IMG/VR virus record: IMGVR_UViG_3300048834_000258
Location: 1-64,000 of that record
Reading direction: 5' to 3' (one strand)
Length of the DNA stretch: 64,000 bases
Origin: a virus
The first letter of the stretch is position 1; each line of letters begins with the position of its first letter. This document shows, one piece after another, positions 2,334 through 38,551 of this stretch. The notes under the pieces were generated by a model. The model searched no databases. It had not been told where the DNA came from and was given only the letters and a program-made list of their open reading frames with translations. The translations under genes were made by a program, and so were the position numbers.

Positions 2334-2774
2334 ATGACGGTCAAAGTGGCGGAGATTGTTTGGAAGCACTTGCGTAAGAAGGCTCGCGAGGCGTTTCCGA
2401 ATGAGATGTTGGGCTATCTGTTTGGGCATATAGAAGGGGATGTGATATATGTTCAAACAGTTTATATCGCCGAGGGCGATGATATTGTGCAGGCTTCGCC
2501 GGAAGCCATCTCCGTGAGTGCTGGGTCCAAAGCAGCGGCGGAATACATTGCGGGAATAATGAAGATGAAGCTGTTGGGTACGGTTCATACGCACCCGGAA
2601 GCGGAGCCTGAAGAGTATACCTGCGATGCGGTTCCGTCGCTTTTTGATTATGAGTATGGATGGGAGGAGCACGTAATGGGCATATTGCACATTTGCCGGA
2701 AGGGCAAGCGGTGGCAGTATGATCTGAGATTTTACGATCCGAAGGGGCTGTATGTCACTGAATTTGTACGTTAA
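2334..2774 (+). CDS. JAB/MPN (JAMM-fold) metalloprotease-like protein
   Basis: 146 residues. Glu24 (NEMLG), then HTHP at 85-88 and Asp98 follow the spacing of the JAMM zinc motif E-xn-HxH-x7-S-x2-D. The position of the usual Ser is Tyr95, so the zinc ligands are present but the oxyanion Ser is changed. JAMM proteins cleave isopeptide or peptide bonds. In phages they occur in tail-tip (lambda K-like) and capsid-processing contexts, and as possible removers of ubiquitin-like conjugates. The RBS is TAGGAGA, 6 bases before the ATG. The gene overlaps the terminase gene by 23 bases, suggesting coupling and a packaging or morphogenesis role. Substrate unknown. Confidence 0.7.
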   Translation: MTVKVAEIVWKHLRKKAREAFPNEMLGYLFGHIEGDVIYVQTVYIAEGDDIVQASPEAISVSAGSKAAAEYIAGIMKMKLLGTVHTHPEAEPEEYTCDAVPSLFDYEYGWEEHVMGILHICRKGKRWQYDLRFYDPKGLYVTEFVR

Positions 2775-5757
2775 GGACCCACGCGAGTCGCGCACCAAAC
2801 AGGTGGCCGAGGAGCGCGAGGCGATCATGAAGATTGCCAAAGCGCGTTGGTTGGCGCGGACTAATATGTACTACCTGTGTAATAAGGTGCTTGGGTACAA
2901 AGATGTGAACCCTGCGGTCCATTATGGGTTGATTCGTACTTTGCAGCAGTTTCCGATGCCTGCGGAAAATGAGTGGTTCAAGTATGATAAGCCGATGGTT
3001 CGCGCCGATGGGTCGGTGGTTTGGGACTATACACCTGTTATTCCGAATATGCTCGATTTGCCGGGAGGCCGTAGACGCCTTATTCTGGATAGTCGCGGTA
3101 CGCTCAAGTGCCACTGCGATTCGAACTGGATGCGTAAAGCCTCGGGCGAGTATGTGCAGACGAAAGACATCGAAGTTGGAGATGTGCTCGACGGTATCGA
3201 TGAGAATTTCCGATTTACTCCTGTAGTTATTGAGCGAAAAGAACTTCAAGGAGAGCAGGAGTGCTATCGAATTACTACCAGAACCGGACGAGTTTTGGAG
3301 GTTTCCCACAACCATCCACTTAGAATGGTGGATAAGTGGATTGAGGCGGAAAAGCTGAAGCCGAAAGATCGAATTGCTATTCACGGAAGGTTGCCAGAGC
3401 CGGAGGGGGCACAGGATGTTGCCTACGACGAGATACTTGGTTGGTTTCTAGGCGACGGCAATATCAGCGGCAGTACTGTTACGCAGAAAAGGGATCGTTT
3501 TGTCCAATGGATTATAGAGGCCGCACAAAAAGCAGGTTTCACGGCAGATGCAATAGAGTACGACCCTGTAAAGAGGCCGGGGATTAAGACGGTTCGGGTG
3601 CAGGGAGCGCGGGATCTATTTCGGGAGTTAGGGTATTTGAAGAAGGATTGGTATGCGAAATCGGCAGACAAGTTTGTCCCCGAGACGATCTTTCGGGCCA
3701 GCAATGCTAGCGTAGGTCGCTTTTTGGCGACACTGTTTGCGGCAGATGGTACTTTCGGAACTGGGTCTATTAGCTATTGCTCTATCTCGAAGAGGCTGTG
3801 CCAAGACATCCAAAGGTTGTTGTTGCGTTTTGGTATTCATAGCCGTGTTTCTACGATTTTGACGAAATACAAAGGAGAGCCTTACACTTGCTATCATCTG
3901 CACGTTCAAGGGATGGAGAACATTTTGCAGTTTGTGGCGAGTATCGGATGGTACAAAGAGTGCCGTTTTAAGTGGCCGAAAGGAAAGGCAAATCCCAACG
4001 TCAACACAGTGCCGAAGCAATGGCGCAAACTGTTTCCGAAGTACTTCTTTGCACGAGGGGAGCGCCCCGATGATTTGCCCAAACTGTGGAACAAGAAACA
4101 GAATCGCTTCATTCCGAAGAGTCTTTCGTCCTACAACGTAGACAAAAAGTATCTTAAGGCAATTTGCCAATATCGTCCAGATGCTTTGATGGAGGGGTTG
4201 GCGTCCGATGATGTATTTTGGGACGAAGTAGTCTCGGTGGAATCTATTGGCAAACAGAGGACGTGGGCTATCCAGACGAACAAACGAAACTACTCTATTT
4301 CGGATGTAGTTACCCATAATACTTCCATTAACATTATGGCGCATTCGGTGCAGTGGATACTGAATTATCCCGACATCGCGATTCTGTTGGTACACGCAAA
4401 AGCCGAGATTGCTGAGGATATCTTGGGCGAGGTTCGTGACATGTTTGCGTTCTGTGAACCACTGCGGCACTTGTTTCCCGAGTTGTGCCCGGAAGCAGAT
4501 CAGATCAAGCACTTTGGAAATAGGAGTCGATTTACTATCCCAGGTAGATCGAAGATTCGCAAAGAGCCGACCATGGATACGACCTCTATTACGTCGGCCA
4601 TCGCCGGAGCGCACTTCGACGTTATCAAGTTTACGGACTGCGTGGAAGAACAGAACGCGGCCAACAAAGAGATGCGCAATGACGTGAGCAAGAAGTTCTC
4701 ACTGTTCCGTAACGTGCTCTCGACGCCGATGCACTGGATTGACGTGGAGGGCACTCGCTATCACTTTGATGACCAGTACGGGCGTATCATTGACGGCGAG
4801 AAGACGCTTCCCTTGGAGCATCGGGTGTGGGGCATCTATGTTAGAGGGTGTTATAAGAAAAAGCTGCCCTCCGGGCAGAAAGATTATCAGTTTTCGCCCG
4901 AGGAGTTGGAACTGCCGGACCTGTTGGACGAGAACGGGAAGAAAGTGAGTTGGTGGCCGGAGCGGTTTCCCACATGGTTCCTGGAGCGAGAAGAGAACGA
5001 CCCTACGGGCGAGATCTTCGACTTCAATTCGCAGCGCCGCAACCATCCGGTGGGTGATAGTAAGACGCTGGATTTCCCCGCCAGCGTGATCCAGTGGATT
5101 CCCGAGAAGGAACTTCGTTCAATTCGAGCGGAGTATTTTGTGACGACGGTGGACACGGCGGAGACGCAGAACGCACAGAGCAACTTCTCGGTAATTACAA
5201 CGTGTATGTGGGATTGTAACAATCGGTGCTATGTGATGGACGTGCGCCGCGCGAAAATGAAGCCCGATGAATTAGTGTCCCAGTTGTTTGATGTGTATGC
5301 AAAATGGCGTCCCATTGTGGTGCGGATCGAGGAAACCTCATACACACGAGGGTTGCAGTTTGGTTTGCGCCGCGAAATGGATTTGAAGCAGTTTTCCATT
5401 CCGTTTGACTTCGTGAAGCCGGACAACCAGAAGAGCAAGCAGGAGCGTATTCGTCTGACGTTGCAGCCGGTCTTGCGGCGGGGCGATTTACGCTTCTCGG
5501 AGGGTTTGCCTTCTGACATGAAAGATGCTATCTATCAGGAGTTCACGCAATTCCCCAAGGGAATTTCGGACGACATCCTGGACACGCTGGCGGACCAGTT
5601 TCAGAACAAGTCGTTCTATGGGAGGATTCGTGAGAGAGAGACTTTCGAAACCATGTCACAGAAAGCATTTAATGCTCTCGTACAGGGGTTGGAAAATCCT
5701 TTTGCGGACCCAGCTACTCCGCCCGAGAGTTACTACTCGCGGACAGGCGGGCTTTAG
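2752..5757 (+). CDS. terL: Terminase large subunit, intein-containing
   Basis: 1001-residue precursor of the DNA-packaging motor. The exteins are residues 1-119 and 524-1001 (597 residues joined, normal for TerL). The P-loop SRGTLK|TS is split by the intein between Lys119 and Thr524. The C-terminal RNase H-like nuclease shows VDTAE (Asp801), RIEET (Glu860) and DDILDTL (Asp940/941). An ATPase acidic motif lies in VIKFTDCVEE. Splicing must restore the Walker A loop before the motor can work. The start ATG at 2752 lies inside the JAMM gene. The 3' end overlaps the end of the convergent AAA+ gene by 4 bases. Confidence 0.93.
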   Translation: MSLNLYVKDPRESRTKQVAEEREAIMKIAKARWLARTNMYYLCNKVLGYKDVNPAVHYGLIRTLQQFPMPAENEWFKYDKPMVRADGSVVWDYTPVIPNMLDLPGGRRRLILDSRGTLKCHCDSNWMRKASGEYVQTKDIEVGDVLDGIDENFRFTPVVIERKELQGEQECYRITTRTGRVLEVSHNHPLRMVDKWIEAEKLKPKDRIAIHGRLPEPEGAQDVAYDEILGWFLGDGNISGSTVTQKRDRFVQWIIEAAQKAGFTADAIEYDPVKRPGIKTVRVQGARDLFRELGYLKKDWYAKSADKFVPETIFRASNASVGRFLATLFAADGTFGTGSISYCSISKRLCQDIQRLLLRFGIHSRVSTILTKYKGEPYTCYHLHVQGMENILQFVASIGWYKECRFKWPKGKANPNVNTVPKQWRKLFPKYFFARGERPDDLPKLWNKKQNRFIPKSLSSYNVDKKYLKAICQYRPDALMEGLASDDVFWDEVVSVESIGKQRTWAIQTNKRNYSISDVVTHNTSINIMAHSVQWILNYPDIAILLVHAKAEIAEDILGEVRDMFAFCEPLRHLFPELCPEADQIKHFGNRSRFTIPGRSKIRKEPTMDTTSITSAIAGAHFDVIKFTDCVEEQNAANKEMRNDVSKKFSLFRNVLSTPMHWIDVEGTRYHFDDQYGRIIDGEKTLPLEHRVWGIYVRGCYKKKLPSGQKDYQFSPEELELPDLLDENGKKVSWWPERFPTWFLEREENDPTGEIFDFNSQRRNHPVGDSKTLDFPASVIQWIPEKELRSIRAEYFVTTVDTAETQNAQSNFSVITTCMWDCNNRCYVMDVRRAKMKPDELVSQLFDVYAKWRPIVVRIEETSYTRGLQFGLRREMDLKQFSIPFDFVKPDNQKSKQERIRLTLQPVLRRGDLRFSEGLPSDMKDAIYQEFTQFPKGISDDILDTLADQFQNKSFYGRIRERETFETMSQKAFNALVQGLENPFADPATPPESYYSRTGGL
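3109..4320 (+). mobile_element. Intein with LAGLIDADG homing endonuclease in terL
   Basis: 404 residues (120-523 of the precursor). It starts at Cys120 (CHCD...) with block A ending IEVGDVL, has a block B-like VSHNHPL, and ends VVTHN, the classic His-Asn of block G. The +1 extein residue is Thr524. Two LAGLIDADG-type motifs are visible: LGWFLGDGN (about 229-237) and FLATLFAADG (about 324-333). This is a full-size class 1 intein, presumably able to splice and home. It sits exactly in the P-loop, a recurrent intein site because target sequence there is invariant. Confidence 0.92.
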
Positions 5758-6785
5758 GTAGCCGCCTGCCGCTTTTCCTGCGAGAATGCCAGCTTGTCGC
5801 CATCGGCGCTGATGTGGATGGTGATGCCCGCCGTAATCTTGCCGCTAGTTTTGAGGACCGCCAGCGGTTGCCACAATAGGTGAGTGATGGCCCGCTTCAA
5901 AGGTCGTGCTCCGTACTTAGCTTCGAAGCCCACTTTAACGAAGAGGTCTTTTGCCGAGTCTTCGAAGTGCAGGGCGCACGAATTGAAGCCCCACCGAGTA
6001 ACGAGCCAGTCGTCGGCTTTGGCCAGTTCAATCTCTACAATGTGGCGCAGCGTCTCTTTTGAGAGTTCTTCATAGTAGAGGAACTCGTCAATGCGGTTGA
6101 TGAACTCCGGCGAGAACTTGCGCTTGAGCCGCTGTTCGACCATGGTGGTCAGGGAGGCGGCTGTGGTTGTGGCGGTGAAGCCGGGGGAGTTCCGTATTTG
6201 GCCAATCTCGGCATAGCCGATGTTGGACGTTAGGAACACCAGCGTGTTCTCGAAGTCGACCGGATTGTTGTCGCCGGTGCGAAGGAAGCCCTTGTCGAGA
6301 ATGCCGAGGAGGATGCGCTGCATCGAAGGCGCGGCCTTCTCAATCTCATCGAACAGTACGACGGAAATTCGACTATGCTCACTGGAAATCGACTCCAGCC
6401 GCTGTTGGGAAAGCACGGCCTGCGTTTCCTTATGGCCCAGATATCCGGGAGGTGCGCCTACCAGTTTGGCCACTTCATGCTCCATCTGGTACTCTCCGCA
6501 GTCCACGCGGAGCAAATGGCGGTCGCTGTTGTGTAGGAGTTCAGCCACGGCTTCGACGGTTCTAGTCTTGCCAGTACCAGTGGGGCCGAGAAGCATGAAA
6601 ACGCCAGCGGGTCTTCCGGGAGGGTTAAGGTTGGCGTCCACCATATCCAGGTAGGGAGTGATTTTGGAAATGCACTCCTGACCGATGATACGCTCGCGTA
6701 ATCGTACCAAGTACGGGAGTTCGGCTTCTCGCGCTCGCCGCGAGTCGGCCATTGGGATGTGCATTCGAGTTCCGTTTACAGGCAT
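5754..6785 (-). CDS. AAA+ unfoldase-like ATPase (ClpA/B D2 type)
   Basis: 343 residues from the ATG at 6785, chosen because AAGGGAGGAG stands 8 bases upstream; an in-frame start 39 bases further out lacks one. Walker A GPTGTGKT (67-74), pore-like GYLG (114-117), Walker B VVLFDEIEK (142-150), sensor 1 LTSNIG, arginine-finger region FINRIDE and sensor 2 GARPLKRA are all present. This matches the second AAA+ ring of ClpB/ClpA, with no N-domain and no ClpP-binding loop recognised. It is alone on the minus strand between terL and the portal gene, with its own promoter and hairpin (cassette A). A role in remodelling capsid or host proteins is inference. Confidence 0.88.
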   Translation of the reverse strand: MPVNGTRMHIPMADSRRAREAELPYLVRLRERIIGQECISKITPYLDMVDANLNPPGRPAGVFMLLGPTGTGKTRTVEAVAELLHNSDRHLLRVDCGEYQMEHEVAKLVGAPPGYLGHKETQAVLSQQRLESISSEHSRISVVLFDEIEKAAPSMQRILLGILDKGFLRTGDNNPVDFENTLVFLTSNIGYAEIGQIRNSPGFTATTTAASLTTMVEQRLKRKFSPEFINRIDEFLYYEELSKETLRHIVEIELAKADDWLVTRWGFNSCALHFEDSAKDLFVKVGFEAKYGARPLKRAITHLLWQPLAVLKTSGKITAGITIHISADGDKLAFSQEKRQAAT

Positions 6786-6856
6786 TTTGGTTTCTCCTCC
6801 CTTGGATCTTACTCGTAAAGCCATTCCAAATCAACTCCTTTCTTCGGCCACCTACA

Positions 6857-6937
6857 GAAAAGAGGGCAGATTGGCGTCCGCCCTCTCGTCCGTTTGTGTG
6901 GCGCGAAGCGCCACGGGGGTCTACAACTAGTGTACCA
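6857..6937 (-). ncRNA. Small-RNA cassette A (promoter-hairpin-T run)
   Basis: On the minus strand an extended -10, TGGTACACT (6929-6937), is followed by GTTGTAGACC (6918-6927), a GGCGC/GCGCC hairpin (6898-6914), then a second hairpin with AGAGGG/CCCTCT-type arms (6861-6886) ending in TTTT. No ORF lies between promoter and terminator. The predicted RNA is about 65 nt. Read-through would enter the AAA+ gene, so the hairpin could instead act as its attenuator. One of eight similar elements. Confidence 0.55.
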
Positions 6938-6941
6938 CTAA

Positions 6942-6966
6942 TGGCGCGTAGCGCCAATGGTAAAAT
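6942..6966 (+). promoter_or_regulatory. Portal-gene promoter with upstream palindrome
   Basis: An extended -10, TG-G-TAAAAT (TAAAAT at 6961-6966), ends 10 bases before the portal ATG. A perfect palindrome with 6-bp arms and a GTA loop (6942-6956) lies directly upstream. No -35 box is visible. The expected start site leaves a leader of only a few bases. Confidence 0.6.
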
Positions 6967-6976
6967 AGAAGTAGCG

Positions 6977-8911
6977 ATGGCTGAAGAACTTAACGATTCC
7001 CTCGTACTTTCGACTGACCCGACTCCGGGCTACGAAGACATCACGAAGCAGCTTGCGCTGTCTCGGGTGGTGCAGACGTTCTTCAAGTACGAGACTTGGC
7101 GGCAGCGCAACTACGACCTCAAGTGGCGGCACCTCCAGGAGCTTTATAACGGGGTGGTACCCAGACGGTTCTGGGAAGGCACTACGACCGAGAGAGCTTC
7201 GCTCTCTGTGCGACTCATTCACTCCCAGGTCCAGAGCGTTCTCCCTCTTCTGCACCAAGCATTGTTTGGGTCTGACATTGAGTGGTTCAAAGTTGCCGCC
7301 ATTGGCGAGACTTCTACGCAGGAAGCAGCGGAGGTGCAAGCGCGGCTACTGTACCTGTGCGAGCACCCAACGGATCGGTTTGGGAACAATGTGCGTAACC
7401 AAGTTACGCTTACTCTCAATGATTTGCTTGTCAAAGGTATCGCCATTCTTGCTTTGCAAGTAGATCCGCTTACGCTGGAGCCTGTAGCCAATCGTATCTC
7501 GCCGCTGGACTTCTATGTCGATCCCGCTTGCGGGCCGGACATTGAACAGGCGAAATCGGTTATTTGGCGGCGCACGCTGACGCTGGATCAGGTAGAGGCA
7601 CTGCGAGGGGCCGAAGGCTTTGATATCCCCGACAGGGGGACGCTCATGGAGTGTATTCAGAGTATGCCGTCGGCTATTGCAGATACGTCCCGGCAGATGG
7701 AAGAAAGTTCGCGGGGTGTTCAGTACAATCCGCTGTCCGACGGGCAGGGTGTGTTTGGCGCGGAGAGCAATCTTGAGGTATTAGTGTACTACACCAAGAC
7801 ACGGGTTGTTTGGGTGCTTAACAGACACTACGTTATTTACAATGGCGAGAATCCGTATGGGTTCTACCCGTTTACGGCGGCGACCTGCTTCTTCGACCCG
7901 GATCGGTTCTACGGGAATGGCTATTCCGATGTACTGGCCGATTTGCAGAAGTACATGCAGTCGATTCGTAATGCGCGACTGGACGAGCTTTCGCTGGCCT
8001 TGAATCCGCCGCGAGTGACCCGCGCTTCGCACGATCAGCGCATGACGTTTTCGCAGAGAGTGTGGCGACCGGGTGCTCAGTTGGCGACCGAGAATGGCAA
8101 GGACGATATTTCGGTCCAGGTGCCGTCGAATATTACACAGAATTCATATCAAGAAGAGAGTTGGATGCAACAGCAGGCCCAGGAGATGACCGGGGTGAAC
8201 TCCATGGTCCTCCAGGGTATGCCGATGCGGGGCAATGCTTCTGCGAGTGCAACTTCGGTAGGAGCGCAGCGCGAGGCTCCGTCGTTGCGGCTGCTGATGG
8301 TGGTTCTCTCTTTGGAGAATTATCTGTTGACGCCGATGTTGTATAAGATGTTGAAGATGCACCAGATTCATAATCAGGGCGATCTTCAGTTGAGAGGTAT
8401 GACGGCGGAAGGACAGACGCCTGTTGCGAATCAAAGTTTGCAGCGCGATGTGAAGTTCATGATGTTGTCTGCAACGCGGATGATGTCACGCGAGAAGCTG
8501 TTGCAGGTGTTCCCGTTCCTGACGCAGTATTTGCTCAATCCTGAGTTGATGGGGCACTTGCAACGGATCGGACTGGCGGTTGATATGGCGGAATGGGTCC
8601 GTATGTTGCAGGACGCCAGCGGCACGAAGCAAGTGTATCAGTTGGTGCGGCCTCTCAATGAACAGGAACAGCAGGCGCTCATGCAGCCGACGCCTGAGAT
8701 GATGCAGGATCAGCAGAAGACGAAGGCATCGAACGAAGTTCGCCTCGCGATGGCGGATAAGAAGAATCAGGCCGAGCAGATGAAGGTCCAGGGCAAACTG
8801 CAAGAGGTCGATAAAAAGACCGAGGCGGACATGAAGAAAGAGATGCTGTTGGCGGTTATGCAGCGAGTGATGGGCGGCGGCAACGCCGAAGGCGGCAACA
8901 GTGGCTCTTAG
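6977..8911 (+). CDS. Portal (head-to-tail connector) protein
   Basis: 644 residues from the ATG at 6977, the first start after the promoter. Upstream in-frame codons run through the promoter and are not used. The sequence has the layout of podovirus connector-type portals: an N-terminal helical stem with many Trp/Arg, the segment DRFYGNGYSDVLADLQKYM near the middle, and a Gln/Lys/Glu-rich coiled C-terminus (about 590-640). Twelve copies would form the DNA channel at the packaging vertex and dock TerL. It is the first gene of the late head module and overlaps the next gene by 11 bases. Confidence 0.88.
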   Translation: MAEELNDSLVLSTDPTPGYEDITKQLALSRVVQTFFKYETWRQRNYDLKWRHLQELYNGVVPRRFWEGTTTERASLSVRLIHSQVQSVLPLLHQALFGSDIEWFKVAAIGETSTQEAAEVQARLLYLCEHPTDRFGNNVRNQVTLTLNDLLVKGIAILALQVDPLTLEPVANRISPLDFYVDPACGPDIEQAKSVIWRRTLTLDQVEALRGAEGFDIPDRGTLMECIQSMPSAIADTSRQMEESSRGVQYNPLSDGQGVFGAESNLEVLVYYTKTRVVWVLNRHYVIYNGENPYGFYPFTAATCFFDPDRFYGNGYSDVLADLQKYMQSIRNARLDELSLALNPPRVTRASHDQRMTFSQRVWRPGAQLATENGKDDISVQVPSNITQNSYQEESWMQQQAQEMTGVNSMVLQGMPMRGNASASATSVGAQREAPSLRLLMVVLSLENYLLTPMLYKMLKMHQIHNQGDLQLRGMTAEGQTPVANQSLQRDVKFMMLSATRMMSREKLLQVFPFLTQYLLNPELMGHLQRIGLAVDMAEWVRMLQDASGTKQVYQLVRPLNEQEQQALMQPTPEMMQDQQKTKASNEVRLAMADKKNQAEQMKVQGKLQEVDKKTEADMKKEMLLAVMQRVMGGGNAEGGNSGS

Positions 8912-9245
8912 TCCTACGGAGTTCGAGCAAGCGGGGAAAGCCCGCGACCTTGCGGACCTGTCCTCCCATCCGGGGTGGGCGGTTCTTCTGTCGGCGCTAG
9001 CCGACAAAGAGAAGCAGTTGTTGGAAGAATTGGCTTTGCTGGACGAGCCGAAGGCTATTGTGCGGGCGAAAGATCACTGGAGTATCTTCCGGCATATTGT
9101 GCAGTTTATTACCAGCGCCCCCGAGAACGCTAAGATCAATGTCTTCGACATCAAAGAGGCCGAAGGGATTGATGATAGCACTCTGACGGTAGGCGCGTTC
9201 CTCAACAAAGTCCCTTATGGATCGGATCAGTTACCTTTAGTGTAA
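8901..9245 (+). CDS. Small protein between portal and scaffold genes
   Basis: 114 residues with a GTG start at 8901 inside the portal gene. It is mostly helical, with a central charged stretch (DKEKQLLEEL) and a C-terminal half with mixed strand character. No family recognised. Position suggests a head-assembly accessory or minor capsid protein. Confidence 0.6.
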   Translation: MALSPTEFEQAGKARDLADLSSHPGWAVLLSALADKEKQLLEELALLDEPKAIVRAKDHWSIFRHIVQFITSAPENAKINVFDIKEAEGIDDSTLTVGAFLNKVPYGSDQLPLV

Positions 9246-9288
9246 ATGTTATCATGGTCTTAGGGACGATTCCCACATAGGAGAGACA

Positions 9289-10074
9289 ATGGCTACCACG
9301 CCCACTTTTGACATCAATTCCATTTCTCCGGAGAAACTGGCCGAGATTCTCGAACAGCTTCGGCAGGAAGACAATAACAATGCACCCCCGCCCCCGGCGC
9401 AGCCGCAGCCCATTAAGATCTCATTCAATGGGGTTGATTTTGTCGGCAATAGTGCCGAAGAAGTGCAGCGCCAGATCGATGTATATACACGAGCACTGGC
9501 CAATGAGCAGCACGCACGGCAGATCCAGGAAGCTACGCGCCAGCAGGCGGCCACACCGCCCGAACCGAAGGCTAAGCAGAAGAAGACGACCGAGGAGTGG
9601 GTGAACAAGTTCACCGAAGATCCGGCCGATGTGATGGACCAGGAAATGGAGCGGAAGATCGAGTCCTATCTTTCGCAGAAGTTTGGGATGCCGAACTGGG
9701 CGGAAGTTCAGAAGGCGGCGGTCCAGCAGATTGTGCAGGACAATTTGCAGAAGACCAAGAATGCGTTCTTCGAACGTAACCCGGATTTCGTGGAAGATCC
9801 CGTCAATTTGCAGGCCATCCAAGGCATCATGCAGCAGAATGGCTTGCAGCCGTCGTTGCAGGGTCTAGAGTGGGCTTGGTCCGAGGCGAAACGCCAGCAA
9901 GTTGCGCGTGTGAAGCAGGCGGAGCCGGTTGCAAGACCGACGGCCCCACTGCCGATGTTGCCTACGGGCGGCGCAAATCCGGGTAGTGATCTGTTGGATG
10001 CGTTCTATTCAACGACTGATCCGGTCAAACAGGAACAGATTTTGCGGCTCATCGAGAAGGCGCAGGCTGGCTAA
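9289..10074 (+). CDS. Scaffolding-like protein
   Basis: 261 residues, acidic and Gln-rich, with predicted coiled coils (about 12-30 and 60-90), a Pro-rich linker (NAPPPPAQPQP), and a C-terminal helix with LLDAFYSTTDP and a LRLIEKAQ end. It sits directly before the major capsid gene, where podoviruses encode the internal scaffold that guides procapsid assembly and then leaves. RBS AGGAGAG 5 bases before the ATG. Assignment rests on position and composition rather than a motif. Confidence 0.65.
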   Translation: MATTPTFDINSISPEKLAEILEQLRQEDNNNAPPPPAQPQPIKISFNGVDFVGNSAEEVQRQIDVYTRALANEQHARQIQEATRQQAATPPEPKAKQKKTTEEWVNKFTEDPADVMDQEMERKIESYLSQKFGMPNWAEVQKAAVQQIVQDNLQKTKNAFFERNPDFVEDPVNLQAIQGIMQQNGLQPSLQGLEWAWSEAKRQQVARVKQAEPVARPTAPLPMLPTGGANPGSDLLDAFYSTTDPVKQEQILRLIEKAQAG

Positions 10075-10083
10075 TGGGGGGGG

Positions 10084-10105
10084 AGGGAGGCGTAAGCCTC
10101 CCTTT
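10084..10105 (+). terminator. Rho-independent terminator before capsid gene
   Basis: Seven-base arms GGGAGGC/GCCTCCC with a GTAA loop, then TTTAT. It insulates the capsid gene, which has its own promoter 24 bases downstream. Confidence 0.65.
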
Positions 10106-10127
10106 ATCCTTAATGCTAAATTGCGTA

Positions 10128-10136
10128 TGTTACAAT
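10128..10136 (+). promoter_or_regulatory. Major capsid promoter
   Basis: An extended -10, TG-T-TACAAT, is followed by AATAAGTAGGAGG, which includes the ribosome-binding site of the capsid gene. Same architecture as the other phage promoters here (see 63871). Confidence 0.6.
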
Positions 10137-31836: not shown

Positions 31837-33831
31837 TTAAATTAGTTCCATGGTGCCCCAGTTAGGGCCGCGCTTTAGTTCGGATGCGCAATAGAAGTCG
31901 GGGTAAATGTCCGTTTCGGTTGTCATGAGGTTCATGAACTCCCGGCATTCGTCTAGCGTCCAGACGAGGGGAACTTCAAAGATAAGCTCGTCGTGGATTT
32001 GCATTAGAGGCACAGCACCATAGGTACTGTAGTATTTGCGCATAATACCTTGGCAGTGGTCGCCGCCGTAGCCTTGACCGATAGCTGCCGCAGCTTTCTT
32101 GAGGTTGTCGTTGGGGTCTTTGTAGAGATTGAGAAAGTAGCCATTTGCGCGGGTAATACGCTCAGTAGTTTCAACCTCTCTACCGATTTTCTGCTGCCAG
32201 TCTAAGACCTTCGGAAAGTGATGAAGGTAGCCAAGTTGAATCTCTACCGCTTGACGACGATGTTCGATAGTGTCATCGCCAAAGAGTAGGAAGGCCAGCT
32301 TCTTTCCACTGAGGCACATTTGGAGACCGCAGTATTGCCAGTCTTCAAAAATGTGCAGAGCGCCTTGATCGAGCAGTTGGCGGTTGAAACCAGTGCGTAG
32401 GTCGCCGGGGCGGTAGCCGTGATATCCAAGCAAATAGTTGGTGCCTAATACCACAATCTTCGAGATATCGCGAGGTTTGCAGTTTCGGTCTTTAGCGGGT
32501 CTTGCGAACAGTTCACCCACAGTATCAGTGATTAAGGTGTAGCCATCGTATTTTAATTCTTCGAGATACCCCGCCTCTTTCAAAACAATGCGAAGTTCGA
32601 GCTGGCTAAAATCCCCACGAAGTAGTACATAATCTTCTCTGGAAGGGACGACTACGCGGCGCACAGCCGACATGCCGCCTTTCTTAGGGACGTTCTGAAA
32701 GTTGGGCGAAGCACAACTGAGGCGACCCGTCGAGGTACTCGCGACGATGAAGCGCGGGTGGACTTTGTTGGCGCGGTCGAGATATTTTTCATCGACCCAA
32801 GACTTGATACCCTTGCCTGCCTGCTTCCAGTCGTACAAATTTTTGAGGTGCCGGAGAAGCTCGGGAGCCGATTCGTCTACGTCTTCGAGGCGGTAGCCGT
32901 ATTCGTCAGCTACGCTGCGCAGCGTAGAAAGCACGTTGTCCTTAGAGGCGCTCTCCATTTCGATGCCGGAGGCGGAGAAGAAAGCAGTCACTTGCTTTGG
33001 CGAGCCGGGATTGAAGGGGAGGTCAGCAGCAGTACGGTCGCGCTTTTCTTTGATTTCGGCGGCAATCTCCGCCGCAGTCTCCATGTTGAGTTGGATGCCC
33101 CGGTCTTGCATCTTCTCGGCAATCTCGGCCATCTCCGCTTTGTGCCAATACGCCAGCTTGGAGGGGAACTGTTTTTCGTACTGGCGCTTCATTTCGTACC
33201 AAGCCACCAAGGGTGCCCAGCTATCGACGGCATTGTACCCCCAAACGTCGCATTTCGGGCAAGGCCCTGTACAGAACTTGCCTCGACACTCTTTGTAGTT
33301 GGGGATAAGCAAGTAGTGAGCGGAGCACGAAAACAGATCGAAAAGTCCGATAGATCCGCTTTCGCCAGTGGATTCACCACTTTCCGAGCGGTCTTCAGTT
33401 TTGGCGTAGTGCTGATGTAGGATGTAGAAGTAGAGAAGAGTATCCTCCCAGCGGTGGAGGTCTGTCTTGAAGCCGAGAACGGCTTCAGTCACAGGCTTGT
33501 CAGCGGACACTACTGCGTGGCCTACGAGCGGTAGTCCGCTGTCCCATATCTCTTCTACGAGCTTCTGCTCGTGCGGCAGCGATGCGGCGCTTCTCTTAGA
33601 GGCAATGCCTACGATAGTGGGCCGCAGGCCCGTAAACTCCAAGTCGTAGCCGAGAGCGCCTTCCTCTTGTGCTTCGCGCAGGGTGCGCGAAAAGCCCGCG
33701 TAATCGCGGTAGATGGGCGGAAAGAAGCCCTCCCCCAAAGGGGGACCGTCGTCGCCGAGAAGTGTAAGCTGCATTGGCCGCGAGCCGAGCAGGTTTGCGA
33801 ACAGTTCGCCTTTTGCTTTTCTACTTGCCAT
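31837..33831 (-). CDS. Family A DNA polymerase with 3'-5' exonuclease
   Basis: 664 residues from the ATG at 33831 (GGAG 5 bases upstream); a TTG start further out is unlikely. The exonuclease domain has YDLEFTG (DxE) and YNAVDSWAPL (YxxxD type). Polymerase motif A GDFSQLELRIV, motif B RDISKIVVLGTNY, motif C MQIHDELIFEV. Counting from the motif B Arg/Lys, the residue matching E. coli Phe762 is Leu. An insert with a Cys cluster (CRGKFCTGPCPKC) sits before the second exonuclease motif. It overlaps the 43-residue membrane gene by 11 bases. Confidence 0.93.
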   Translation of the reverse strand: MASRKAKGELFANLLGSRPMQLTLLGDDGPPLGEGFFPPIYRDYAGFSRTLREAQEEGALGYDLEFTGLRPTIVGIASKRSAASLPHEQKLVEEIWDSGLPLVGHAVVSADKPVTEAVLGFKTDLHRWEDTLLYFYILHQHYAKTEDRSESGESTGESGSIGLFDLFSCSAHYLLIPNYKECRGKFCTGPCPKCDVWGYNAVDSWAPLVAWYEMKRQYEKQFPSKLAYWHKAEMAEIAEKMQDRGIQLNMETAAEIAAEIKEKRDRTAADLPFNPGSPKQVTAFFSASGIEMESASKDNVLSTLRSVADEYGYRLEDVDESAPELLRHLKNLYDWKQAGKGIKSWVDEKYLDRANKVHPRFIVASTSTGRLSCASPNFQNVPKKGGMSAVRRVVVPSREDYVLLRGDFSQLELRIVLKEAGYLEELKYDGYTLITDTVGELFARPAKDRNCKPRDISKIVVLGTNYLLGYHGYRPGDLRTGFNRQLLDQGALHIFEDWQYCGLQMCLSGKKLAFLLFGDDTIEHRRQAVEIQLGYLHHFPKVLDWQQKIGREVETTERITRANGYFLNLYKDPNDNLKKAAAAIGQGYGGDHCQGIMRKYYSTYGAVPLMQIHDELIFEVPLVWTLDECREFMNLMTTETDIYPDFYCASELKRGPNWGTMELI

Positions 33832-33952
33832 AGTGCTCCGCGAAATAGGCAGCGATGGTGCTGATAATGACAACAGCGGCGAAGATGGCTGCTAGCGAAA
33901 GCAGGTCTTGCCAAAAGTGCCAATCGTAGTCTTCCGGTGGTTTGGGAATCAT
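33821..33952 (-). CDS. 43-residue single-pass membrane protein
   Basis: Sequence MIPKPPEDYDWHFWQDL followed by a hydrophobic helix (about 18-36, LLSLAAIFAAVVIISTIAA) and EHYGK. Its ATG overlaps the stop of the upstream gene (ATGA) and its stop overlaps the polymerase start, so translation is coupled on both sides. This supports a real gene despite its size. Function unknown. Confidence 0.65.
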   Translation of the reverse strand: MIPKPPEDYDWHFWQDLLSLAAIFAAVVIISTIAAYFAEHYGK

Positions 33953-34381: not shown

Positions 34382-34948
34382 CTATGGACGCCAATGGAAC
34401 TTAGTATCGATGTGGAGCTTCCAGGAGGACAAGCCCCCCTTGAGTTGCGGGTCGAGGAACTCCAGAACTTCTTTGCCGTAAGCGACTAAGGGGCGATAGC
34501 CCCGGTCAGCCAGTTGTTGAGCTTTGCTCGCCGCCAACTCGTTGATGCACTGCATCGGAGGGGAGCCGAAAGCTCCCTCCAGGTCGTAGGTGTAGACGAC
34601 GGCGTTCGGCCTCCAAGCCCGCAGGGCTTGGTCGTACTGGCGGCATAGGGTGAGCGCGTGCTGTGCGTTCGTCTTTGGAAGCGTGCCCTTGGCACTGTGC
34701 GCAAAGTAGCAGCGAATGAGGTACGCTACTAAGATGTCGTCTTTGGCAAAGCCAAGTTTGTTATAGGTCCGTAGGACCGAGTACATAGAGTCGGCATCCC
34801 AAGGGTCGCCAGTGACGGCGCTTTCGCGCCCAGGGCGATACAACAGCACACCTACTTTAGGTGCCGAAGGCACCAAGTCAGCGCAGAAGCCTACCGTAGG
34901 TAGGTGATAGAGACGGCAACTTGAGCAAGTGTCCGGCTTGCGGTTCAT
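34382..34948 (-). CDS. Uracil-DNA glycosylase-superfamily-like protein
   Basis: 188 residues. The N-terminal CSSCRLY and later C-x-x-Y-D-Q (LCRQYDQAL) resemble the Fe-S Cys sites of family 4/5 UDGs. LLYRPGRES...TGDPW takes the place of the usual GEAPG...G(L/R)PF motif, and ILVAYLIRC matches the core strand NVVKC. The catalytic motif is altered and the HPS motif is not seen (the end is DTKFHWRP), so it may be inactive or of altered specificity. TAATG overlap with the upstream gene. Confidence 0.6.
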   Translation of the reverse strand: MNRKPDTCSSCRLYHLPTVGFCADLVPSAPKVGVLLYRPGRESAVTGDPWDADSMYSVLRTYNKLGFAKDDILVAYLIRCYFAHSAKGTLPKTNAQHALTLCRQYDQALRAWRPNAVVYTYDLEGAFGSPPMQCINELAASKAQQLADRGYRPLVAYGKEVLEFLDPQLKGGLSSWKLHIDTKFHWRP

Positions 34949-35490: not shown

Positions 35491-36180
35491 TTAGAGGACT
35501 TCTCCCACGCGGTCGGGGGTGAAGGTCACTTCGGCGTCGTCTTCGTCCAACTTGTCGTAGGAGTTGATTTCGCCCGCCGCAAAACGAGTGGCCTGTTTCT
35601 CGGCGCGTTTCAGGAAGGACTCGAAGGTCTTCGTCATCTTGGCTTCGTCGCCGAAGGGAATGAAGGTGAAGTTCGCGATTTCGCGATACTGGCCGCGAAC
35701 CTTGATCCATTCGCCGTCACCGTCGCGCTCGTTCTTGCGCTGCTGTGCGGTGATGTAGAGGAAGGGCAGGGGCCGCTTCGTTTCGTCTTCTTCACCCTGG
35801 GCGAACACGGAACGAAGAACCGCGACCAACTCTTCGGGAGTGTACTCGGCCATTTCGCCGAGGGCGGCAAGATAGTCGTCGGCGCGTTCAAACGAACCGG
35901 CTACGCCCATCAGAAGACCGGGGCGGTCCACCGAGCCGAGGTTGCGCTGGTATTCGTACTTGTCGCGCTTTTCGAGCGTGTTGCAGTTGAAGGTATTGGG
36001 GCACCACTCGGGCTGAATGGTGATGTATGTGTTGAAGTCGGGGGAACCGGCGAGGCCCTTGATCTTGACCTTTACGCCTAGAGCACCGTCGGTGCTGCGC
36101 ACCTTCCCTACTTCAAATCCGGCGAGGACGCCCAGGTTGAACTGCTGCGGCATGGGCCGCGCTTGCAATGGTTTTGCCAT
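35491..36180 (-). CDS. Possible ssDNA-binding protein near Sak4
   Basis: 229 residues, RBS AAGGAG 9 bases upstream. The N-terminal beta-rich region (about 15-65, VGKVRSTDGALGVKVKIKG...TYITIQPEW) is compatible with an OB fold. The C-terminus is acidic (DKLDEDDAEV), as in many SSBs. It is co-directional with and close to the Sak4-like ATPase gene; Sak4 phages usually encode an SSB nearby. No family motif proves it. Confidence 0.5.
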   Translation of the reverse strand: MAKPLQARPMPQQFNLGVLAGFEVGKVRSTDGALGVKVKIKGLAGSPDFNTYITIQPEWCPNTFNCNTLEKRDKYEYQRNLGSVDRPGLLMGVAGSFERADDYLAALGEMAEYTPEELVAVLRSVFAQGEEDETKRPLPFLYITAQQRKNERDGDGEWIKVRGQYREIANFTFIPFGDEAKMTKTFESFLKRAEKQATRFAAGEINSYDKLDEDDAEVTFTPDRVGEVL

Positions 36181-36193
36181 GTGATGTTTCTCC

Positions 36194-36580
36194 TTAGTGG
36201 ATCAATTTCGTCTGAGGCGGAGCCTCTTCAGAAGTACCCCGAACGGGGTACACGAACTGCGGCGAAGCCGAGAACGAAGTGCCCGGTAGGGCCAGCGGCG
36301 TGTGGTTGTCCACGAGCGCCTCTTCGTAGCCAGCTTGCTTTCGCATCTCGGGCAAAGCTGCCCTATATGAGTCTACCGCAAGTTGATAGTTTTTGTCAAC
36401 AACTTCCTCGCCAAATTGTACGAGGAGAGATGCTCGAAGTGAAGAGACGATAGCGGACACCGCTGCTGGCGGATAAGGGCACAGCATGATGTTAACCGCT
36501 TCGTGCAACTTCAAAAGAATGAGTTCGACCTTTTGAGCTTCGCTCAAATCGCCAAAGTTTACTTGTTGATTTTCTTCCAC
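36194..36580 (-). CDS. Helical protein between Sak4 and SSB-like genes
   Basis: 128 residues with a GTG start overlapping the end of the Sak4-like gene (GGAGG 5 bases upstream). Helical over about 10-95, then a Pro/Ser-rich tail. No recognised family. Its place between two recombination genes suggests a recombination accessory role. Confidence 0.6.
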   Translation of the reverse strand: MEENQQVNFGDLSEAQKVELILLKLHEAVNIMLCPYPPAAVSAIVSSLRASLLVQFGEEVVDKNYQLAVDSYRAALPEMRKQAGYEEALVDNHTPLALPGTSFSASPQFVYPVRGTSEEAPPQTKLIH

Positions 36581-37425
36581 AGGGCCTCCATGTCGGCTGG
36601 TTCAGTTGGCTGCAAGTCATTGCCACGCTGCTTGCTGACGCAATCAGGGGAGGCAATGACGTATTCGTAGGTGAGTTCTTTCTTTCCGATGGGATACTTG
36701 CGCACCGAGCGGAAAACGAAGTCGAAGTAGCCTGCAACTTGGTTGCGAGTAGCACCTACCAGTGCGGGGCGATAGACCGTATCGGCCTGTTTGACTTCGC
36801 GCCCCGGCTGCGGAGCCGCAGGCTCGTACTCCCAAGCGTTGACGTAGTAGTGCAGCGGCTTCGCCGCTGTCGCCTGCAAGTGCAGGAAGTCGTCCAGGAC
36901 GCGCTTGGAAACACGTCCGATGGCGTCCCAGTCTTTCTCGCCAGCTACGAGACCCTCTTCGCGCATCTGGCCTCCAGCCTTGTCTACCTTGCCTGCGTAG
37001 TCCTTGGAAAGGACGTACTCGTCAATGTAGTTGGTCTGGAAGTTGGAGAGGCCGTCCCAGGCGAGGAGGTCGGGGTCGAAATCGGCCATCGTTTTGCCGT
37101 CGCCAAGCGCAAGCTCCGCGAACCCCTCCACAAAGGCTTTCACTTCCTGGTAAGTGGCGAGGTCGAAGAAAACGAGGTTATCGAGAAGCTCGGGCTTGCC
37201 CTCGGCAAGCAGGTCAGCACGGACGGTGCGAAGCCCATGGCCTCCGGCTTCCGTCGAGAGGACCGCTACCTTTAGGCCCGCTTTGAGAAAGCCCGTAAGG
37301 GCTTTCGTCTTTCCGGTGCCTGAGGCTCCGTACATGAAGATTTTCTGTTGCTGCGGTTCTTCGTCCGTCAGCTTGCGAGGCCGCAAGACGGGTGCGTCTT
37401 TCGGCTTGAAGTTGAGAAGACTCAT
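36559..37425 (-). CDS. Sak4-like RecA-fold recombination ATPase
   Basis: 288 residues from the ATG at 37425 (ATGA overlap with the nuclease stop; RBS AAAGGA). Walker A YGASGTGKT (about 33-41), LSTEAGGHGL (second strand with acidic residue) and Walker B DLLAWDGLSNFQ fit the AAA_24/Sak4 group of short RecA-core ATPases that promote single-strand annealing in phage recombination. Adjacent genes encode a nuclease and an SSB candidate, making a complete recombination module. Confidence 0.8.
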   Translation of the reverse strand: MSLLNFKPKDAPVLRPRKLTDEEPQQQKIFMYGASGTGKTKALTGFLKAGLKVAVLSTEAGGHGLRTVRADLLAEGKPELLDNLVFFDLATYQEVKAFVEGFAELALGDGKTMADFDPDLLAWDGLSNFQTNYIDEYVLSKDYAGKVDKAGGQMREEGLVAGEKDWDAIGRVSKRVLDDFLHLQATAAKPLHYYVNAWEYEPAAPQPGREVKQADTVYRPALVGATRNQVAGYFDFVFRSVRKYPIGKKELTYEYVIASPDCVSKQRGNDLQPTEPADMEALWKKINK

Positions 37426-38261
37426 AGAGTAAGTTCCTTTCCAGTGTTGAAGCCGGTGGCGATTTGCCAATCGCGAATCTGCATATAGGCGGCAGCGATA
37501 GCGGCGTGAGCCGCTTTGCCGACCTGAAGTGCCATCCCGTCTTCCTCGGTCCCCGTCAATTTTGAGAGGCGAAGCCTCTCCGGGCAAAGGGCGAATTTGT
37601 CGAGGGTTGAATGCGACAGGTGCTCTAATTTTAGCACACCAGCGGGGGTGCCAGTCGAAAGGCACCCTGTCATAAAGGGACAGTCGCGCCCAAAAGCGCC
37701 GCAGCCTGAGGGGCGGTATTCCGGCCAGCGTTCCGCGTCTCGGAGAGATTCCAATTGCGCGGCACTCTGCCGCAGGTAAAGAGGTACCTTACCTAGTTGG
37801 TAGTTCCAGTAAGAGGATGCCGACGTAAGAGCGACTTGGCGCGGTTTGCCGCTCCCGGCACGCGGAATGCCGCGATAGAGGAACTTGACATTCAGTTTGG
37901 GGAATCGTTGCTGGATGAAGTAGCTGTAGAGCCGCCACTGCCAGCTATCCACTATCTTAGACTCCCAGCGTTTGTCGGGATTCGTTGTGATCTTCCAGTC
38001 AACGATGATTACCTGGGAAGGGTTGTACGCGATCAGGTCGGCGACCCACTTGAACTTGTAGGGCCAGAAGTCGAGCGTTTCTTCGAACTCCTGTTCGACG
38101 CCTACGATGCGGAACCCGTCTGCGTCCGCCGAGGCGCATGCCTCTAAAGCACACATAGCAGAAGCTGCCGCGCTGTCGGTGTAATAGTCGGGAAGGTCGC
38201 AGTCGAGGATTGCTTGGTTGAGGGGGTCGGAGTTAAGGTCGTTAAGGCGAAACTTAGCCAT
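37422..38261 (-). CDS. PD-(D/E)XK Fe-S nuclease in circularly permuted order
   Basis: 279 residues. Starting from residue 54: EQEFE (Glu56-60), WVADL (Asp75), VDWK (Asp88-Lys90), QWRLYSY (Gln108) and three Cys (187, 194, 200) make the usual back half of a Cas4/RecB-like nuclease. The usual front half, LSHSTLDKFALCP (Cys226) then GKAAH (Gly248-His252), follows at the C-terminus instead of at the N-terminus. All catalytic and Fe-S residues are therefore present, in permuted order. It overlaps the Sak4-like gene (ATGA), so it probably processes recombination ends. Confidence 0.75.
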   Translation of the reverse strand: MAKFRLNDLNSDPLNQAILDCDLPDYYTDSAAASAMCALEACASADADGFRIVGVEQEFEETLDFWPYKFKWVADLIAYNPSQVIIVDWKITTNPDKRWESKIVDSWQWRLYSYFIQQRFPKLNVKFLYRGIPRAGSGKPRQVALTSASSYWNYQLGKVPLYLRQSAAQLESLRDAERWPEYRPSGCGAFGRDCPFMTGCLSTGTPAGVLKLEHLSHSTLDKFALCPERLRLSKLTGTEEDGMALQVGKAAHAAIAAAYMQIRDWQIATGFNTGKELTL

Positions 38262-38551
38262 TAAGCCTCCCCTTCTTCGAAGTGGTCATTGTGCGGAGAT
38301 CCAAAGGATCTCGCTTGAACAAGAGTACGTCCTCCGGGCGCGAGGCTAAAGCCTCCACGTTCAAAGCGTTCCACTTCTGAGAGAGCGCAGCGTATGAGCG
38401 AGGTTTCCTCGGCGCTAGCCGTGCCGCTGTAACGATCCTCCCACCCTCGGGCCGCGAAGTGCTCGTCCAGCTTCTCCGCTAACGATTTGCGGTTGGGGTT
38501 TTGGTTGCGTTGGGCAACGTAGTAGCGTTTGCGTGTTGCATCAATCTGCAT
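38261..38551 (-). CDS. Small basic-to-acidic helical protein
   Basis: 96 residues, start MQIDATRKRYYVAQR with a basic N-terminus and a long helix to about 70. It ends one base into the nuclease gene start. Contains two mini-palindromes in its coding sequence (for example 38296-38312). Function unknown. Confidence 0.65.
   Translation of the reverse strand: MQIDATRKRYYVAQRNQNPNRKSLAEKLDEHFAARGWEDRYSGTASAEETSLIRCALSEVERFERGGFSLAPGGRTLVQARSFGSPHNDHFEEGEA

Follow-up and report, generated by a model that had tools for sequence, protein, structure and literature searches.

Nucleases of the Cas4/AddB type, in the PD-(D/E)XK superfamily, carry one N-terminal and three C-terminal cysteines that staple the ends of the nuclease through one metal cluster (PMC3466216). 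Most of these proteins have an iron-sulfur (Fe-S) cluster, but one DUF3799 protein has Zn instead (PMC3466216). Cas4 has 5'-3' exonuclease activity, which is proposed to leave 3' tails (PMC3466216), and Sak4 is an annealase that is stimulated by its SSB (PMC5928155). We analyzed a 64,000-nucleotide stretch of viral DNA (the window), part of the 73,567-base virus record IMGVR_UViG_3300048834_000258, that contains a gene for a Cas4/AddB-type nuclease (P0001) in which the segment that is normally N-terminal lies at the C-terminus. This protein is very probably a natural circular permutation of a cysteine-stapled PD-(D/E)XK nuclease, which would close as Cas4 does and trim DNA ends for the product of an adjacent Sak4-like gene.

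Phage proteins annotated as "Cas4 family exonuclease" and resembling PHROG_69, such as Streptomyces phage FlowerPower gp62 and Mycobacterium phage Euphoria gp68, align with the window nuclease at all nuclease motifs and at the four cysteines after rotation of the chain, and likewise have an ATPase gene nearby, which is annotated as a DnaB-like helicase. However, these exonucleases have the standard domain order, a C-x2-C-x5-C cysteine spacing and other neighboring genes. Cas4 SSO0001 (PDB 4ic1) and the Argonaute-associated, Cas4-family ACE1 (9iab) match the modeled fold of the nuclease and have the same one-plus-three cysteine staple (PMC3466216), but their first cysteine is N-terminal and neither resides in a Sak4 cassette. 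The nuclease domain of AddB/AdnAB, RecE and MGME1 share the RecB-type nuclease fold and an involvement in end resection, but they are in the standard order, and AddB and AdnAB belong to helicase machines. Migration of catalytic residues is known within the superfamily and is distinct from permutation (PMC551604). This kind of enzyme is already known, but we found no description of a permuted order for Cas4-type nucleases in the literature searched, including the Cas4 phylogenomics paper; permutations in other families of the superfamily were outside that search.

Order of motifs and profile matches

The open reading frame (ORF) assigned to the nuclease in an initial annotation, which was made from the sequence alone, is complete, and we now place it on the minus strand, where it runs from an ATG start to a TGA stop (Table 1). 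Its translation contains the motifs of RecB-like nucleases, namely a catalytic Asp, (D/E)-x-Lys, Gln-x3-Tyr and Gly-x3-His. The residues named in that annotation are all in place: Asp75 (in VADLI), Asp88-Trp-Lys90 and Gln108-Trp-Arg-Leu-Tyr112 are followed by Cys187, Cys194 and Cys200, and these in turn by Ser216-x-Ser218...Phe223-x2-Cys226-Pro and Gly248-x3-His252. Residues 1-204 hold helices, a beta core (to which Glu56 also belongs, together with Asp75, Asp88-x-Lys90 and Gln108/Tyr112) and then the first three cysteines, whereas the remaining 75 residues form the tail that corresponds to the old N-terminus. In Cas4 and AddB one cysteine precedes the core and three come after it, whereas here all four follow the catalytic core.

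Profile matches are split in the native order and become joined upon rotation. The whole protein matches Pfam PDDEXK_1 with E=1.1e-13 and 52.2 bits (curated cut-off, 22), with residues 26-200 matching profile positions 84-246 and the tail matching the start of the profile. When the parts are compared separately, the first 204 amino acids match positions 84-246 (36.2 bits, E=8e-9) and the last 75 match positions 1-50 (20.2 bits, E=6e-4). Moving the tail to the front results in a single stretch covering positions 1-246 of 247, with 57.6 bits. PHROG_69 behaves likewise, as pieces of 29.5 and 22.2 bits in reversed order become one stretch of 51.8 bits, and the match is continuous only once the chain is rotated. 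Split, reversed matches in the native chain are also observed with PHROG_1218, and the tail matches the start of further profiles (DUF3799 positions 1-41, PHROG_1218 positions 8-61). A relative with 23% identity (L030) also goes from two stretches to one after rotation, and then matches PDDEXK_1 positions 1-237 with 59.2 bits and PHROG_69 with 58.9 bits.

Comparison with standard-order enzymes locates the joint. As a test independent of the profiles, an alignment of six permuted sequences was cut and rotated at ten-residue intervals, and each version was compared using hhalign with seven standard-order phage exonucleases, six of them from Streptomyces, Mycobacterium and Rhodococcus phages and one from a viral contig. 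The native order gives two pieces in reversed order, of 48 columns (score 47.8) and 135 columns (score 33.1). With the tail placed ahead of the core (cuts 100-210), the score climbs to ~66. Only cuts at 205-214, within the linker, yield a full-length alignment (232-233 columns, 4-251 of 275), which has 233 columns and a score of 64-66 for cuts at 205-212. At these cuts in the linker the DxK motif, the glutamine and the cysteines come into register with the standard-order enzymes. The circularly permuted domain order that was first proposed is thus borne out, in that rotation at the linker restores a continuous match to PDDEXK_1, PHROG_69 and the standard-order phage exonucleases.

Relatives and conservation

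Homologues in the permuted order are present on five other contigs: L001, whose protein is 97% identical to that of the window, and L004, L035, L030 and L052, at 23-26% identity. The permuted nuclease spans four divergent phage lineages. The distant relatives were found with DNA patterns that specify the motifs in permuted order, most matches to which were due to chance and were discarded; because the patterns require this order, they are uninformative on the frequency of the standard order among close relatives. Scans with near-identical sequences matched only the 97% relative. A tblastn search of isolated phages gave no match with either the native protein or a rotated copy (the latter tried to E=10), nor did a PDB sequence search with the nuclease. 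No member turned up in the single scan made of bacterial and archaeal genomes, but the pattern used needed a TGC cysteine codon and Gly-Lys, so absence from these genomes is not established.

Invariant positions in the six sequences comprise Glu56, Asp88, Trp89, Lys90, Gln108, Tyr112, the four cysteines (187, 194, 200 and 226), Ser216, Phe223, Cys226-Pro-Glu, Gly248 and His252. The counterpart of Asp75 was shifted by the aligner in the relatives, but is present by eye in each (FLDIV, KIDLV, YIDVL). The earlier claim that four Fe-S cysteines and the motif His are kept therefore stands as to the residues, and is refined in two respects: the metal may be Fe-S or Zn, and the spacing in this family is C-x6-C-x5-C (x8 in L030), versus C-x2-C-x5-C in ordinary enzymes. 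This shared odd spacing points to one origin of the permuted family.

In the tail, the window and L001 differ by 23 synonymous changes and no amino-acid changes (synonymous divergence, dS, 0.60; nonsynonymous divergence, dN, 0), and dN/dS is 0.022 over the whole nuclease gene. Judged by these substitutions, the tail is under purifying selection. L001 represents a separate genome, because dS is 0.6 despite the 97% protein identity.

An assembly error that joined two gene fragments had been named as a way in which the permutation could be spurious. Such a chimera or fusion is virtually impossible, given the full-length homologues with the same order on five other contigs from four lineages, and we found no point in its favor. 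A separate gene for the front half nearby was likewise rejected. The window gene has no further copy of the front half of the nuclease within 3 kb, and none is in the 96-amino-acid ORF whose stop overlaps the nuclease start (TAATG); the flanks examined were 3 kb in the window, only 82 bases upstream in L004 and 826 in L030. The same rearranged gene occurs in the same replication cluster of several distantly related phages, which argues that the circular permutation is natural, genuine and long-lasting.

Predicted structure and alternative explanations

An AlphaFold model based on the six sequences has a predicted template modeling score (pTM) of 0.68 and a mean predicted local distance difference test (pLDDT) of 66.8. 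Its elements are helices 11-19 and 25-49, strands 51-63, 66-80 and 83-92, helices 97-104 and 107-119, strands 124-133 and 147-152, helix 158-174, and helices 220-225, 227-235 and 239-269, an order that fits a permuted nuclease as far as the model goes. The top structural matches in the PDB are the Cas4-family ACE1, Cas4 SSO0001, MGME1, RecE and AdnAB. In BFVD, the best match is A0A6J5MFE0 (280 amino acids), from an uncultured Caudovirales phage, which aligns sequentially over its full length (283 aligned columns, 26% identity) with a template modeling (TM) score of 0.64 both ways; most other BFVD matches listed have TM-scores of ~0.3-0.45. Although it is annotated only as a member of the PD-(D/E)XK nuclease superfamily, its modeled fold suggests that it is probably another permuted member, already in UniProt.

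Some observations weigh against a closed, permuted nuclease that serves Sak4. The pLDDT is <50 over nearly all of residues 176-239, a region that includes the cysteines and the linker, and a second AlphaFold model, of L030, is poor (pTM 0.45). TM-scores to PDB structures are low (0.2-0.4); this is expected because a permuted chain aligns sequentially only in part, but a weak model would also give low TM-scores. Also, Sak4 modules need not encode a nuclease of their own, as HK620 has Abc2, a RecBCD hijacker (PMC5928155).

In the permuted nuclease, the segment that used to be N-terminal, which holds the Gly-x3-His helix and the first of the cluster cysteines, would now follow the three C-terminal cysteines, and a linker of ~25 residues (201-225) would span two ligands of the same predicted metal cluster. 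Because one N-terminal and three C-terminal cysteines bind one cluster, the old ends would meet there, and a join of ~25 residues would therefore cost little. This argument, already made in the initial annotation, agrees with the published anatomy of Cas4 and AddB (PMC3466216). The new chain ends would fall within the variable, helical region that separates the His helix from the first strand of the core, and opening the chain there would leave the core whole. The fold would then close like that of Cas4 and have the same active site. Probably, the permutation arose once, in an ancestor of the cassette, by a tandem duplication that was trimmed at both ends.

The evidence on motif order is silent on which chain the tail packs in, and the linker is poorly modeled. 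The tail could instead complete the fold of a neighboring chain, in which case the protein would be obligately dimeric or ring-shaped rather than a closed, permuted monomer. Such a domain-swapped assembly is improbable, since Cys200 and Cys226 should share one cluster and ~25 residues close this distance easily within one chain, and since a linker of similar length is kept in the shortest relative (L030, 261 amino acids). Another explanation draws on the score of the tail alone, which is just under the Pfam cut-off (20.2 versus 22 bits): the tail might be an unrelated helical appendage that resembles the Cas4 front by chance, attached to an N-terminally truncated nuclease of 200 residues. We rejected this explanation as exceedingly improbable, because exactly the missing profile start is matched in PDDEXK_1, DUF3799, PHROG_69 and PHROG_1218, the motif recurs in four lineages, and the tail has undergone no amino-acid change between the window and L001.

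The permuted fold might also act as an endonuclease, on branched DNA or in the breakdown of host DNA, and no longer as an exonuclease for Sak4. Cas4-like and RecB-like nucleases do include endonucleases, and activity is unreadable from sequence. However, adjacency to the Sak4-like ATPase gene and to the gene for a 229-amino-acid, SSB-like protein is conserved in all lineages, and the relatives RecE, AddB and Cas4 are of exonuclease character, which leaves endonuclease activity as a minor but appreciable possibility.

The Sak4 cassette

In the window, the genes run in the order of those for the nuclease, the Sak4-like ATPase, a 128-amino-acid ORF, the 229-amino-acid protein, a UDG-like protein and a family A DNA polymerase, followed by metallo-phosphoesterase and helicase-like genes (Table 1). 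As initially noted, the nuclease is coupled to the Sak4-like gene, whose start overlaps the nuclease stop (ATGA). The nuclease adjoins a Sak4-like ATPase in all lineages, and homologues of the ATPase are found in four other nuclease-bearing phage records and also in L052. The nuclease, Sak4, 229-amino-acid and UDG-like genes have the same order in all distant records, with the UDG-like match of L035 cut by the locus end. E-values in these cassette comparisons come from profiles that contain the hits, and so express relatedness, not independent significance. The 128-amino-acid ORF was not found in the distant relatives, and the 229-amino-acid protein has no function match in PHROG or Pfam. There is no cas gene, and so neither cas1 nor cas2, among the neighbors scanned, which form a replication/recombination module.

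Table 1. Positions of the nuclease, its segments and adjacent genes in the window
Feature	Position	Strand	Details
Circularly permuted Cas4/AddB-type PD-(D/E)XK nuclease, very probable (P0001)	37422..38261	minus	279 amino acids; profile and alignment evidence
Nuclease residues 1-204, old back three quarters	37650..38261	minus	PDDEXK_1 84-246/247; hhalign 49-207 to standard 113-255
Linker, residues 201-225, old C-terminus to old N-terminus	37587..37661	minus	between Cys200 and Cys226; rotation scan, low model confidence
Nuclease residues 205-279, old N-terminal segment, now C-terminal	37425..37649	minus	LSHSTLDKFALCPERxR with Cys226; GKAAH with His252
96-amino-acid ORF upstream of nuclease	38261..38551	minus	stop overlaps nuclease start; no second nuclease front half
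Sak4-like ATPase	36559..37425	minus	288 amino acids from ATG at 37425; PHROG_124 E=2.6e-16; Pfam AAA_24
128-amino-acid ORF between Sak4 and SSB-like gene	36194..36580	minus	also in L001
229-amino-acid protein, SSB-like by position only	35491..36180	minus	30% identity to L004 copy; homologues in all lineages
UDG-superfamily-like protein	34382..34948	minus	188 amino acids; Pfam UDG E=0.0027, below cut-off; 34% identity to L004 copy
Family A DNA polymerase, same replication module	31837..33873	minus	Pfam DNA_pol_A 8e-28; PHROG_17

The UDG-like protein bears a CxxC plus further Cys, and is found in every permuted-nuclease cassette. In L047, the replication cassette includes a gene for a tyrosine integrase (Pfam Phage_integrase; 8882-10129, plus strand), flanked by the UDG-like gene and the polymerase gene. 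The phage record behind L004, L048 (5886-7964), has a split family A DNA polymerase, such that residues ~63-365 and 370-674 match stretches ~200 bases apart, an arrangement that resembles two genes or an intervening sequence. Elsewhere in the window, the 1001-amino-acid ORF of the terminase large subunit (2752-5757, plus strand) contains an apparent intein, with matches to Pfam Intein_splicing (159-523) and LAGLIDADG_3 (323-399) followed by terminase matches. The portal protein (6752-8911, plus strand) matches Pfam Phage SU10 portal, which suggests a podovirus-like virion.

Nuclease-annealase pairs are exemplified by lambda Red and RecET. Because Cas4 is a 5'-3' exonuclease and Sak4 is an SSB-stimulated annealase, we infer such a pair here, and with it the polarity of cleavage and the partnership with Sak4. 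The most likely function of the nuclease would be to trim double-stranded DNA ends, providing single-stranded DNA for annealing by Sak4; the Sak4-like annealase and the SSB-like protein would then pair single strands in recombination-dependent replication of the phage. We lean slightly toward the broader proposal that this is the first natural permutation of a Cas4/AddB iron-staple nuclease, made tolerable by a cluster that clasps the joined old ends, and that it became fixed across a wide lineage of phages, in which it serves Sak4 as a dedicated partner for end resection, perhaps owing to better contact of the new ends with Sak4.

A metal cluster that bridges both chain ends is unusual among natural permutations of catalytic domains. 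The permuted nuclease could serve as a natural test of the purpose of the iron staple: if the cluster holds the ends, it should become less essential once they are joined. Annotation based on profile fragments may misread such permuted genes as truncated or fused. The cassette would also add a previously unrecognized nuclease-Sak4 pair, with possible use in recombineering.
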